DNA of 46,049 bases from Candidatus Nitrosopumilus sp. (lineage in GTDB: Archaea; Thermoproteota; Nitrososphaeria; Nitrososphaerales; Nitrosopumilaceae), in assembly GCA_016125975.1 (NCBI GenBank), contig JAEFCZ010000016.1:1-46049 (forward strand), in the 5' to 3' direction. The notes below the pieces were generated by a model that was not told where the DNA came from, did no database searches, and worked only from the letters and a program-made list of their open reading frames with translations. Shown here in pieces: positions 6,047 through 11,641 of this stretch; positions within the stretch are counted from its first letter, which is position 1, and every line of letters begins with the position of its first letter. The position numbers and the translations under genes were made by a program.

Positions 6047-6664
6047 TTATTTTTTTGAATTATAAATAATGTAAATTGTTCTTACCCATGTATTTTTAAT
6101 TTCTACAGGGTCTTTTCCTGAAAGTTTTTCTAAAAATAATCCCCGCATGACTGCAATCACTCCCTTTACAATCTCTAGTAATTCTTTATCGTTATACCCT
6201 TGCAAAATATCTATGTCTTTTCTAGTATTTTTTAGCATTTCAAAAACAACCCTTGACACTTCTTTGTCTTTGTTTAACATCATCTGTCTTAATTTCAAGT
6301 TATTTTCAGATTCTATTCTTCCTTCAAGCCATAATCGTTCAAAGTCTTTGGTATCACTAATCGTTAGATCATAGTATTTCCTTAAATCATTCAAAAGATT
6401 TTCTTTTTTTTTAAATAATTTTTTACCTTTTTTACTAAGAATATGAAAAATTCTTTGAAATTCTTCGTCAATACTACCACTTAACACCTGAAAAAATAAT
6501 TCTTCTTTACTTTGGAAATGATAAAATAAAATCCCTTTACTTACACCTGCATCTTTTACTATTTCATTCATTGATGTCTTTTGATAGCCATTTTTTGCAA
6601 ACTTTTTTTTTGAAATTTGGAGAATTTTCTTCTGTATTGCAGTAGGTTCTGTTTTTAATGTCAC
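6047..6664 (-). CDS. TetR-family transcriptional repressor 1
   Basis: A 205-residue regulator with the typical TetR N-terminal domain. The helix-turn-helix lies at about 28-53, with TSMNEIVKDAGVSKGILFYH, followed by the F-Q-S-K-E-E-L-F helix start. The C-terminal ligand-binding and dimer domain is helical. It begins with GTG, and a TATA-like CTTATTGTA lies about 28 bases upstream. It is divergent from the FAD monooxygenase gene, and the perfect inverted repeat at 6705-6722 between them is the likely operator. It is clearly paralogous to the regulator at 7935-8528: both end in a DPxxIKxTWVxTxY-like stretch and SKK. The inducer is unknown. Confidence 0.88.
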   Translation of the reverse strand: MTLKTEPTAIQKKILQISKKKFAKNGYQKTSMNEIVKDAGVSKGILFYHFQSKEELFFQVLSGSIDEEFQRIFHILSKKGKKLFKKKENLLNDLRKYYDLTISDTKDFERLWLEGRIESENNLKLRQMMLNKDKEVSRVVFEMLKNTRKDIDILQGYNDKELLEIVKGVIAVMRGLFLEKLSGKDPVEIKNTWVRTIYIIYNSKK

Positions 6665-6704
6665 TTGTTTGGTTTGAAAATCATCAAGTACAATAAGATT
6701 ACTG

Positions 6705-6722
6705 ACTGACCAGACGGTCAGT
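6705..6722. promoter_or_regulatory. Predicted operator of TetR 1, overlapping the monooxygenase TATA box
   Basis: ACTGACC - AGAC - GGTCAGT is a perfect 7-bp inverted repeat. The TATA-like TTTATATG (6722-6729) starts on its last base. Its spacing to the TTG at 6754 fits a leaderless transcript. A bound repressor would therefore block TBP on the monooxygenase promoter and sit just upstream of the regulator's own promoter. An extra ACTG copy to the left (6701-6704) extends the left half-site. Confidence 0.75.
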
Positions 6723-6753
6723 TTATATGTGATTTCTCAACTTAAATCAAATA

Positions 6754-7922
6754 TTGACGAGTAAACAAGTCATAATTGTTGGTTGTGGAATAGCAGGTAC
6801 ATCTCTTGCATTTGCATTGAAAAATGTGGAATCAATAGTACTATCTATGAATCTGAAAAAACCCCCAATGATCATGCTGGTCTTTATTTGTATTTAGGGC
6901 CAAATGGTATGAATGTTCTAAAGTCATTAGATTTACAAAATGAAATTCAGGATGTAGGCTTTTTTTGTGATAACATGGTGTTTCGAAATAATAAGGAAAA
7001 AATAATTGCAGAAGTAAATACTAATCAGGATAAATCTCACTATGGTTCTGATGGATTAATAATCAAACGAGGTTTGTTTCAAAAATTTTTACGAGAAAAA
7101 GTCATTTCTAATAACATTCAGATAGAATGGAACAAAAAATTAGAAAGCATCAAAACTGACAATGATGTTGTAGCTAAATTTAAGGATAATTCTGATGCTA
7201 AAGGAGATTTGTTAATTGGATGTGATGGACTACATTCCAAAACGAGACAAATAATTTTTCCTGATGCCCCTTTGCCTAAATATACTGGAGTTGTTCTAGC
7301 TGGAGGAATCTCTAAAAACCAATCAAAAACTCCTACAAACCAACTAACATTTCGCTTTGGAAGTAAAGTGTATCTTAATTATTTTGTAACATCTGATAGA
7401 GAAGCAATGTGGGGTGCTCACATGAAAATCAAACAAGATTTGTTATCTGATTTAACATCTGTCTCTTCTGAAACATGGAAACAAAAAATATTAGACAAGT
7501 TTAGTGATGATTCTTCTTATGTCTCTGAATTTATTGAAAATGCTTCTAATTTAACAAAACTCCCTTTGTATGATATTGAATCACTTCCTTCTTGGTACAA
7601 AGGTTCTGTATGTCTTGTTGGAGATTCTGCTCATACCACTACGCCTCATGCGGGACAAGGTGCCTCGCTAGCATTAGAGAGTGCACTTACACTTGCCAGA
7701 TGTCTAAGAGATACATCTGACACTGAAGATGCATTTTCAAAATATCAAAGTCAACGTAAGCCTAGAGTAGAAAAAATGATTGCTCTGGCAAGACGTCAAG
7801 GAGAAATGTTCACTGCTACAAATCCTATAAAAAAATGGTTTCGCAACAGCGTACTTTCTATGATGATTAAAAAAAATTCTCAAATGTTTGATGAAATTTA
7901 TGACTATAAGGTAGATTGGTAA
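6754..7922 (+). pseudogene. FAD-dependent aromatic-hydroxylase-type monooxygenase, frameshifted near the N-terminus
   Basis: Group A flavoprotein monooxygenase (UbiH/PHBH-like), which would hydroxylate an aromatic or similar compound using NAD(P)H and oxygen. From TTG 6754 the first frame encodes VIIVGCGIAGTSLAFALK, the FAD-binding Rossmann motif. It then runs out of frame at a five-A run (6820-6824). One extra A would continue into KCGINSTIYESEK and the rest of the gene. Later motifs are the DG of GCDGLHS and the GDSAHTTTPHAGQG block that binds FAD. The repaired product would be 389 residues, a normal length. The longest intact frame, from about 6783, lacks the FAD motif. A real mutation, programmed slippage or a sequence error are all possible. 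Confidence 0.8.
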
Positions 7923-7934
7923 TAATTTTAAAAA

Positions 7935-8528
7935 TTATTTTTTTGAAGTAAGAATTGCATACATTGTCTGAACCCATGTCTGTTTTACTATTTCAGGATC
8001 ATCTCCTGTAACACTATCTAATGCACATCCTTTCACTAGAGCCATACTGCCTTTTGCTAATCTTGCAAGTTCAACATCTGAATAGTCTGATAACAATTTC
8101 ATGTTATCTTTAATTTGCTTGAATTGTAATGTACTAAGAGATTCTAGATATTTTCTTCTTTTAATTACCATTTGTTTTATCTTTGAATTGTGAGCTGATT
8201 CACTCATTGCCTCCAACCAAATCCTCATCAAGTCTTTTTGAAAATCCATTATCTCGTACATTTTCTCCAAATCTCCAAGCAATTCTTTCCTTTTTTCAAA
8301 TAATTTGGGTTGTGATTTTATCACTGAATCTTGATTCTCCACGAAAATTACCATAAACAAATCATCTTTACTTGCAAAATGATGATAAACTCCTCCCTTG
8401 CTTACCTTTGCAGTTTTTGCAATGTCATCCATTGATGTGTTTGAAAATCCTTTTTTTGCAAAATTTCTTCTTGCAGCATGAATAATTCTTAATTTCAGTT
8501 TAGTTGGCTGTTTTAGAACTGTGCTCAC
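7935..8528 (-). CDS. TetR-family transcriptional repressor 2
   Basis: Regulator with an N-terminal helix-turn-helix (TSMDDIAKTAKVSKGGVYHH) and a helical ligand-binding domain. I prefer the GTG at 8528, which gives 197 residues, over the ATG at 8543. The reason is a TATA-like TTTTATTA about 26 bases before the GTG. It ends 12 bases from the convergent monooxygenase gene and is divergent from the gene pair starting at 8612. The perfect palindrome at 8566-8579 in that gap is its likely operator. It shares its overall plan and C-terminal motif with the regulator at 6047, which points to duplication of a regulator-operator unit. Confidence 0.87.
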   Translation of the reverse strand: MSTVLKQPTKLKLRIIHAARRNFAKKGFSNTSMDDIAKTAKVSKGGVYHHFASKDDLFMVIFVENQDSVIKSQPKLFEKRKELLGDLEKMYEIMDFQKDLMRIWLEAMSESAHNSKIKQMVIKRRKYLESLSTLQFKQIKDNMKLLSDYSDVELARLAKGSMALVKGCALDSVTGDDPEIVKQTWVQTMYAILTSKK

Positions 8529-8565
8529 TATGTGACATATCATAAGCAGTAATAAAAGATTACCG

Positions 8566-8579
8566 ACCGACTAGTCGGT
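8566..8579. promoter_or_regulatory. Predicted operator of TetR 2
   Basis: ACCGACTAGTCGGT is a perfect 14-bp palindrome, with an extra ACCG just to the left (8562-8565). It stands three bases before the TATA box of the rightward gene and just upstream of the regulator's own TATA region, so it could control both. Its layout matches that of the 6705-6722 operator: an AAGATTAC stretch on the left and GTTTATAT on the right. The core bases differ. Confidence 0.75.
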
Positions 8580-8582
8580 TTG

Positions 8583-8591
8583 TTTATATAA
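8583..8591 (+). promoter_or_regulatory. TATA box of the TetR 2-controlled gene pair
   Basis: TTTATATAA is centred about 25 bases before the ATG at 8612, so the mRNA is probably leaderless. An earlier ATG at 8604 opens only a two-codon frame and is not the start. Confidence 0.7.
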
Positions 8592-8611
8592 TACAAGTAG
8601 ATCATGCTACT

Positions 8612-8836
8612 ATGACTAGAAAAAGACCTGGATTTCTAGGTAAATTAAGAAATTCGCTTCGTACAGTTGATCAATCATTTACAAATAGAGATGACCTTCA
8701 CAATCAAAATAAAATCCAAAAACTAGAAGAAAGAATGTCTGATAAAGTATTTGGGGATGCCCTTGACAATCTTGATATTCCATTTCAAAAATTTTCAAAC
8801 AAGAAAATGAGTATTAAAAATTCTAAAAGGTACTAA
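8612..8836 (+). CDS. Small basic hypothetical protein (74 aa)
   Basis: No family is recognised. The protein is very polar, with basic ends (RKRP near the start and NSKRY at the end) and a probable amphipathic helix at about 30-50. No membrane segment or metal motif is visible. It has a strong TATA box at leaderless spacing and a TetR palindrome upstream. Its stop is two bases before the start of the hydrolase gene. This makes it the first gene of a probable two-gene operon controlled by TetR 2. It could be a regulator or a binding partner, but nothing in the sequence decides this. Confidence 0.65.
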   Translation: MTRKRPGFLGKLRNSLRTVDQSFTNRDDLHNQNKIQKLEERMSDKVFGDALDNLDIPFQKFSNKKMSIKNSKRY

Positions 8837-8838
8837 AA

Positions 8839-9900
8839 ATGGATACAGAGAAAATCATTGAAAATCACATAATTAAAGGATCAAGTCCAGGAATTTCTGT
8901 AGGTATTTTACAAGATAATAACATTCAGACTTTTAATTTTGGTGAAACAAAGAAACATTCAGGCATATTACCTACAAGTAACACTGTTTATGAAATAGGC
9001 TCTGTTACAAAGCCATTTGCTGGAATTCTAGCTGCAATTTTAGAAGATGAAGGATTATTTTCATTAGATGACACGATTGTCAAATACTTGCCTCAATTAA
9101 AAAATTCAGATATTGAAAATTCAAAAATCACAATACGCCATTTAATTACAAATACTGGAGATCTTCCTAGCACACTTCCATTAAAAACAATTGTTCCATA
9201 CTTGCTCAAACTGTATCTAAAAATGAATACAAAAAATCCTTTTGAGAATTATCCAAAAGAAAATCTCTATGAGTATTTGAGAAAAAGAAAAATCAAAAAA
9301 ATTCCTGGTACTACGTGGAGCTATTCTAATTTTGGATATTCAATTTTAGGACATATTTGTGAAAATGTTACGGATCAAAGTTTTGAAAATCTTATAGTTA
9401 ATAAAATCTGTAAACCCCTTGGGATGAATGATACTGGAATTAATCTATTAGAATCTCACAAGGACAGACTGGCTACAGGATACACATTTTCAGGAAAACA
9501 ATCCAATTTTTGGAGTTCACCTTCAATGGAAGGAATGATCAGTCTGCGTTCTACTGTAGATGATTTACTACTTTTTGCCAAGGCTAATTTAGGCATAAAT
9601 CAGTCAAAAATCTCCCATATTTTGGAGAATTGTATTTCCACAGAGGTGAATCCTAAACTTACTACCTTTATGAAATATTATCCAAAATACGCTTACGGTC
9701 TGCCTCTTAGTAAATTTCGATTAGGTTGGTTTGTTTACAATACTGGAAATACTGATGTTGTTGGAATAGATGGAGGAACAGAAGGATTTTCTAGCTTTCT
9801 AATAATGAACATGGAAAAAAAATCAGCAGTTACAGTTCTTACAAATAAACTAAATCCAAAACCTACTCATAAACTAGGGATGTCATTAATTCAAAATTAA
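8839..9900 (+). CDS. Serine hydrolase of the beta-lactamase / penicillin-binding-protein fold
   Basis: A 353-residue class C beta-lactamase-like or EstB-like enzyme. The catalytic SxxK is SVTK in EIGSVTKPFAG (about residue 54-57). The YxN element is YSN in WSYSNFGYSILG. The third motif position is GG in IDGGTEGFSS near residue 315. No signal peptide is seen, so it is probably cytoplasmic and more likely an esterase or peptidase than a cell-wall enzyme. It lies two bases downstream of the small gene at 8612 under the same TetR-controlled promoter, which suggests hydrolysis of a small inducing compound. The substrate is not deducible. Confidence 0.85.
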   Translation: MDTEKIIENHIIKGSSPGISVGILQDNNIQTFNFGETKKHSGILPTSNTVYEIGSVTKPFAGILAAILEDEGLFSLDDTIVKYLPQLKNSDIENSKITIRHLITNTGDLPSTLPLKTIVPYLLKLYLKMNTKNPFENYPKENLYEYLRKRKIKKIPGTTWSYSNFGYSILGHICENVTDQSFENLIVNKICKPLGMNDTGINLLESHKDRLATGYTFSGKQSNFWSSPSMEGMISLRSTVDDLLLFAKANLGINQSKISHILENCISTEVNPKLTTFMKYYPKYAYGLPLSKFRLGWFVYNTGNTDVVGIDGGTEGFSSFLIMNMEKKSAVTVLTNKLNPKPTHKLGMSLIQN

Positions 9901-10196: not shown

Positions 10197-10606
10197 ATGT
10201 TAGTAATGATTGATGAAATTGAAGGAGTTATTGTAATGGTATCAGACCAAGAAAAGGCATTAGAATTTTATACTAAGAAGATAGGATTTGCAAAAAAAGT
10301 AGACACTATGAGTTCTGGGTTTAGATGGATTGTTGTTGGACCAAGAGATTCTAATGCTGTAATTAGCTAGTTAGTCCTCTTTTTATAAAAGATAGGGGTG
10401 AATCTTTAGATAATCTAGAAAAAAGAATTGGTCAATCTACTGGAATTTGGTTTTACAGTAAAAACATTGCTCAGACATATCAAGAATTAAAATCAAAAGG
10501 AGTAAAAGTCACAGAACCAAAAAAACAGATTTGGGGAGGAATTTTATGCACTGTTTATGATCAAGATAATAATAGTTTTAGTTTGATTGGAGATTCAGAA
10601 AACTAA
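10197..10606 (+). pseudogene. VOC / glyoxalase-bleomycin-resistance-fold protein with a one-base deletion
   Basis: The first frame gives a typical VOC start: GVIVMVSDQEKALEFYTKKI and then GFRWIVVGPRDSNAVI. It stops at 10368-10370. The frame one base over continues directly with LVSPLFIKDRGESLDNL, then GIWFYSKNIAQTYQELKSKG and a normal VOC end. Restoring one G at about 10365 gives NAVIELVSP and a 136-residue protein of normal VOC length. A TATA-like TTTTATAC lies at about 10158-10165. VOC proteins bind a metal and handle small molecules or antibiotics. ATG 10206 is an alternative start. Confidence 0.8.
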
Positions 10607-11020: not shown

Positions 11021-11641
11021 ATGAATTCTTTTGATAGAATTGTGGCAAAAGGTGTAAGATCTGTTCTTGAAGAGGATCTCGGTAAATCAACATACAAGAA
11101 AATAGAAAAAGAAGTATTTGATGTACATGGAATTTCAATTTTAGATGCAGTCAGTGATTTTTCAAAACTAGATCTGGTTTTACGAAAATTCTTTGGCAAA
11201 CACACAACTAACATAGAATCAAAAATTTTCAAAAAAATATTGTCAATAAATAATGAAACCAAGACTGAATCTGTAATTAAGATTAAAGATTATGATGTTG
11301 CAAAAACCATTTTTGAAGCATATGGTGATCCTGCCAAAAAAATAATTTTAGATTTGCTATTACATGAAGCAAAATCTATTCCTGAAACTATTGCCAAGTC
11401 TAAACTTCCAAAAGCATCAACGTATACTAGAATCAAAGAATTAATTCAAGATGGCTTGTTAACCATGGTTGGATTCACTAATGCTAGTGATGGACGAAAA
11501 GTAAATGAATATGCTACAACTTTTAGCAAAACTGTCTTTGAAATTAATGATGAACATATTTCTATAGATGCTAATATTCAAAAAGAATTTCTTAGAGATA
11601 GTTTTGCCTTTAATTCAATTCAAGAAATTAAATCAATGTGA
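11021..11641 (+). CDS. Winged-helix transcriptional regulator (206 aa)
   Basis: The N-terminal half (1-85) is a helical domain of a type I associate with thaumarchaeal regulators. The second half (about 95-175) is an ArsR/MarR-like winged helix: GDPAKKIILDLLLHEAKSIP, then a recognition helix in LPKASTYTRIKELIQDGLL, then a wing and TTFSKTVFEI. TTTTATATC ends about 22 bases before the ATG, giving a leaderless mRNA. The next gene starts 6 bases after its stop, so the two form an operon. The membrane protein downstream may be its signal partner or target, which is inferred from position only. Confidence 0.75.
   Translation: MNSFDRIVAKGVRSVLEEDLGKSTYKKIEKEVFDVHGISILDAVSDFSKLDLVLRKFFGKHTTNIESKIFKKILSINNETKTESVIKIKDYDVAKTIFEAYGDPAKKIILDLLLHEAKSIPETIAKSKLPKASTYTRIKELIQDGLLTMVGFTNASDGRKVNEYATTFSKTVFEINDEHISIDANIQKEFLRDSFAFNSIQEIKSM

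Follow-up and report, generated by a model that had tools for sequence, protein, structure and literature searches.

The phenylacetate genes of Burkholderia cenocepacia are controlled by PaaR, a TetR repressor that acts through ACCGACCGGTCGGT; this operator, a dual overlapping inverted repeat like that of QacR, lies within the core promoter, and repression requires that the inverted repeat be intact (PMC2770484). Among archaea, the TetR regulator FadRSa of Sulfolobus acidocaldarius represses a local cluster from few sites (PMC6449355). The gamma-butyrolactone receptors CprB and ArpA are reported to bind a 22-bp imperfect palindrome (PMC4150764). In our literature searches, TetR regulators of ammonia-oxidising archaea were not the subject of any study, and nothing relevant on thaumarchaeal TetR operators emerged. 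Here we describe a locus in 46,049 nucleotides of Candidatus Nitrosopumilus sp. (contig JAEFCZ010000016.1; this whole stretch is referred to as the window) which, judged from sequence, appears to hold a pair of ordinary, previously undescribed TetR switches. The initial annotation had regarded the combined system as one not described in archaea; TetR-controlled clusters are known there (FadRSa, PMC6449355), and the operator sequence is known in bacteria (PaaR, PMC2770484). In our preferred reading, which we consider probable, two divergent, autorepressed TetR modules with one operator type block both of their divergent core promoters and act as switches for detoxification; their regulators belong to a TetR subfamily of Nitrososphaeria, and there may be cross-talk between the modules.

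Both regulator genes lie on the minus strand, tetR-A at 6047-6664 (GTG start at 6664) and tetR-B at 7935-8543 (start at ATG 8543 or at GTG 8528, the latter derived from alignment with TetR-A). Membership in the TetR/AcrR family is indicated by TetR_N matches of 56.4 bits (E = 2.6e-15) and 67.4 bits (E = 9.3e-19), respectively, against a Pfam cut-off of 24. The two proteins are 36% identical over 204 alignment columns (E = 2e-45) and each carries TetR_N, which agrees with their earlier description as clear paralogues. The 1.79 Mb of this Nitrosopumilaceae genome yielded no other TetR_N gene; with two genes and two sites, its complete TetR inventory sits in one 2-kb locus and represents a very small test case for the sharing or separation of operators in archaea. 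An AlphaFold model of TetR-A (pLDDT 89.5) has the nine helices of an all-helical TetR fold; QacR (best TM-score, 0.75), FasR and the Bacillus FadR are among the closest solved folds, but are only about 20% identical to TetR-A. For both regulators, the top NCBIfam match was an ScbR-type profile (NF041196) from the receptor class of ScbR, ArpA and CprB, matched in the DNA-binding domain; however, the scores of 50.4 and 53.7 bits are far below the cut-off of 150, and an identity as gamma-butyrolactone receptors was rejected. As this sub-threshold match is the one pointer to quorum or lactone chemistry at the locus, the proposal of a quorum-like island was not upheld.

Each intergenic region had been described as a palindrome between two conserved flanks, divergently placed between a TetR gene and its target, and all strings of this layout are present, i.e., the octamers AAGATTAC (at 6695 and 8556) and GTTTATAT (at 6721 and 8582) as well as ACTGACC-AGAC-GGTCAGT (6705-6722) and ACCGACTAGTCGGT (8566-8579). 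The 34-bp blocks from AAGATTAC to GTTTATAT are identical at 28/34 positions in one ungapped register, as compared to a best value of 22/34 in 500 dinucleotide shuffles of both intergenic regions. The reading of the two palindromes as diverged from each other was rejected, since, in register, 6701-6722 and 8562-8583 both match one 22-bp element, ACYGACYGACYAGWCGGTYWGT. Operator A (6701-6722) is a pseudo-palindrome with 8/11 pairs and a second dyad 2 bp off (ACTGACC-n4-GGTCAGT), and operator B (8562-8583) is a pseudo-palindrome with 9/11 pairs and the perfect 14-bp core ACCGACTAGTCGGT. The 4-bp rhythm of the operators (ACTG-ACTG-ACC) means that they hold more than one dyad; with the dyad moved by 2 bp (the n4 palindrome), operator A shows 7/9 and operator B 4/9. 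With regard to the overlapping dyads typical of QacR, two dyads offset by 2 bp are present at site A and one strong dyad at site B. Scans of the 1.79-Mb genome with the 22-bp pattern (up to three mismatches) and with the 14-bp core ACYGACYRGTCRGT (up to one mismatch) each returned only operators A and B, and a wider regulon was not found by either scan.

These features resemble the description of FadRSa, whose few genomic sites likewise cluster at the regulator's own locus and which occupies semi-palindromes with one dimer or two; FadRSa differs in its 16-bp motif, 30-kb lipid cluster and acyl-CoA ligand. The likeness to PaaR rests on operator sequence, as ACCGACCGGTCGGT is identical to the core of operator B at 12/14 positions, and degradation genes are the repressed genes there; PaaR differs in its bacterial -35/-10 promoter and in its targets.

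In a set of 202 upstream regions, taken from the window and from related loci, the frequency of TATA-like words is highest 25-32 nt ahead of the start codon. Each operator abuts a TTTATAT word located 29-32 nt before the target start, i.e., at the position of this peak; the TATA boxes, assigned by sequence and peak position, lie on the plus strand at 6722-6727 for the monooxygenase gene (32 nt before the TTG at 6754) and at 8583-8588 for the small-protein/hydrolase unit (29 nt before the ATG at 8612). On the other strand, the octamer AAGATTAC reads GTAATCTT and opens a CTTATT or CTTTTATT box, placing putative TATA-like boxes of tetR-A (CTTATT, 6692-6697, minus strand) and tetR-B (CTTTTATT, 8551-8558, minus strand) approx. 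30 nt before the GTG codons at 6664 and 8528, where the TetR proteins align; these tetR-side boxes are weak, and their position was the basis for the assignment. The conserved flanks hence look like two divergent TATA boxes, and an operator sandwiched between two divergent core promoters accounts for the layout shared by both modules.

From this geometry of gene, operator and TATA box, together with the rarity and conservation of the sites and the trees described below, we infer binding, repression, a ligand and cross-talk as follows. The 22-bp operator would separate the TATA box of the target on one side from the weaker tetR box on the other, overlapping the BRE region by the former and abutting the latter, such that TetR, bound as one dimer or, like QacR, as two dimers on overlapping dyads, would block TBP/TFB at both promoters. 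A small hydrophobic ligand would release TetR from the operator and turn on the monooxygenase (module A) or the small protein and the serine hydrolase (module B). Inducible detoxification is the likely role of both modules.

To compare operators among relatives, 11 Nitrosopumilaceae genomes were scanned. As core sites with one mismatch were equally numerous for the reversed and the real pattern in these genomes, only perfect sites and 22-bp matches carry weight. Eight perfect core sites were found, each next to a TetR gene that belongs to the subfamily. In G059, the operator of the TetR-A orthologue (ACTAACTGACTAGTCGGTCAGT) is identical to operator A at 19/22 and to operator B at 17/22 positions, and its core, ACTGACTAGTCGGT, is nearer to the core of B; the off-centre palindrome of operator A therefore represents a local variant of the shared element. 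A sister clade of TetR-A has the operator variant GGTCGGT-CA-ACCGACC. Five genomes (G002, G018, G021, G034 and G050) carry the operator upstream of a tetR from another clade, in most of them before a small operon in which a gene for an RDD-type membrane protein precedes tetR. Loci L148, L150, L151 and L152, from several Nitrosopumilaceae genera, show a small membrane protein-tetR operon under the same operator (the RDD family was tested in L148). G059 has a second operator copy (L139:7382-7432), located before the TATA box of a neighbouring gene whose product, a putative secreted protein, belongs to no known family, and its single TetR therefore seems to control two promoters. Perfect cores also occur in bacteria, i.e., in the Burkholderia paa promoters (PaaR) and upstream of the own TetR genes in 6/68 loci of bacterial relatives, where only perfect matches were used because the reversed control also matches 4-bp-periodic sites. 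As the operator core is conserved across domains, archaeal TetR sites can be predicted from what is known in bacteria.

These comparisons bear on the alternative that, after duplication of a regulatory unit, TetR-A and TetR-B each co-evolved with a private operator, without cross-binding between A and B, which we regard as quite improbable. It could draw on the 6/22 positions at which operators A and B differ, on the unlike recognition helices (KGILFYHF in TetR-A vs. KGGVYHHF in TetR-B) and on G229, in which the operator beside a long-branch TetR-B orthologue has its half-sites 4 bp further apart (ACCGACGATATCGTCGGT; L140:6163-6186). The latter site may possibly be a real case of regulator and operator change, and its spacing, along with the GGTCGGT-CA-ACCGACC variant, indicates that operators do change within the TetR subfamily. 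Yet A and B match the same 22-bp pattern in the same register, the G059 site of the TetR-A orthologue resembles both operators and has a B-like core, and the core is common to bacteria too. Nor do recognition-helix residues sort by operator type: regulators of the B and C types have like helices (SKGGxYHHF) and face different operators, whereas the unlike helices of TetR-A and TetR-B face one type. Since the operator of the subfamily is largely unchanged, a degree of cross-binding between A and B is likely. Of the interpretation put forward in the initial annotation, the paralogous TetRs, the duplicated divergent modules and the targets for oxidation and hydrolysis stand; operator divergence and co-evolution are unsupported, given the single pattern and the B-like core in G059.

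The targets had been listed as a flavin monooxygenase, a small basic protein with a serine hydrolase, and a VOC protein; the genes of the first three lie on the plus strand. The monooxygenase (6754-7922) is of the FAD-dependent group A type (PF01494, FAD_binding_3, E = 9e-17; 61.8 bits vs. a cut-off of 22), and none of the 25 NCBIfam models listed for it reached its cut-off. The small basic protein (8612-8836, 74 aa) has no family, but is real, as tblastn found relatives in G229 (E = 1.5e-11) and G059, each directly before the hydrolase and with the C-terminus ...KNSKRY kept. The hydrolase (8839-9900) belongs to the beta-lactamase/PBP/esterase family (PF00144, E = 9.7e-58; SVTK and YSN motifs), shows no obvious signal peptide and has orthologues in G059 (47% identity) and G229 (43%). 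Class C beta-lactamase was rejected for this protein (NCBIfam bla_class_C, 130 bits vs. a cut-off of 415), and with PF00144 matched, it was therefore assigned to the serine hydrolase/esterase superfamily only. The monooxygenase and hydrolase assignments (by Pfam) and the small protein thus agree with the earlier list; the VOC gene, conversely, lies outside the range given for the modules, and the reading frames of the monooxygenase and VOC genes are broken (near 6815-6826 and at 10365-10372, respectively).

With its monooxygenase frame broken, module A may have lost its activity in this genome, and these two breaks would also fit a locus that is decaying and largely functionless here, a reading to which we give little credence. 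The two TetR genes and their operators are intact, however, as are the small protein and the hydrolase, and a third apparent break in the same contig (approx. 1200-1400, in a cupredoxin-like protein at 693-1629) suggests assembly indels, although rpoB elsewhere is intact. The breaks in the monooxygenase, VOC and cupredoxin-like genes are apparent ones, representing either pseudogenes or assembly indels.

TetR regulators are rare in Nitrosopumilaceae, with 10/200 genomes above the cut-off and 11/250 by a subfamily profile, which separates Nitrososphaeria members (>130 bits) from bacterial ones (<77 bits). In the tree, TetR-A groups with a G059 protein (support 100/99) and then with a G229 protein, and TetR-B groups with another G229 protein (100/99). 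Each regulator is thus nearer to a protein of another genome than TetR-A is to TetR-B, so that the TetR-A/TetR-B duplication is older than these species and a recent local duplication was rejected. Nor did locus comparison bear out duplication of the modules as fixed units. In G059, the TetR-A orthologue is 74% identical, with the same operator and layout, but the monooxygenase beside it is another one (37% identical to that of the window; the monooxygenase tree was built on the intact downstream part). Next come a 44-aa small-protein relative and the hydrolase; TetR-B is absent. In G229 (8% estimated contamination), TetR-B, small protein and hydrolase adjoin a TetR-A-like gene, with several monooxygenases near. 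Regulators and operators are steadier than the genes they would control, the targets having been swapped between genomes.

This mosaic of targets (37% identity for the monooxygenase vs. 74% for TetR-A), the rarity of TetR genes and the A-type module without TetR-B in G059 could also be explained if horizontal transfer had brought in each module on its own, from a different source, and the two had landed adjacent to each other. We consider this rather unlikely, as A-like and B-like modules occur within about 2 kb in G229 as well, the small protein and hydrolase beside module A in G059 agree with a combined cluster that lost TetR-B, and a single Nitrososphaeria-specific subfamily takes in all members.

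In two relatives, nuoB (complex I 20-kDa subunit) has a second, diverged copy (L146:1835-2542 in G241 and L140:8563-9087 in G229); this copy is divergent from a TetR-A-clade gene, has the operator and a TATA box just upstream and keeps its cysteines, and the canonical copy is located elsewhere in G241. As a hypothesis, nuoB under such a switch in two relatives would be the more interesting lead, albeit outside the window. It is a long shot that the subfamily governs how ammonia-oxidising archaea defend themselves against an inhibitor of respiratory complex I (quinone site), with some members derepressing a second, diverged NuoB and others, as here, enzymes that would attack the inhibitor by oxidation and hydrolysis; a literature search on nuoB-based inhibitor resistance found nothing on point. 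A truncated nuoB piece is present in G018 (L147:6561-6770). The same locus also encodes, at L147:3169-3789, a protein without a Pfam match that is 75% identical to one encoded at 11021-11641 of the window, each of them a few kb from TetR modules.
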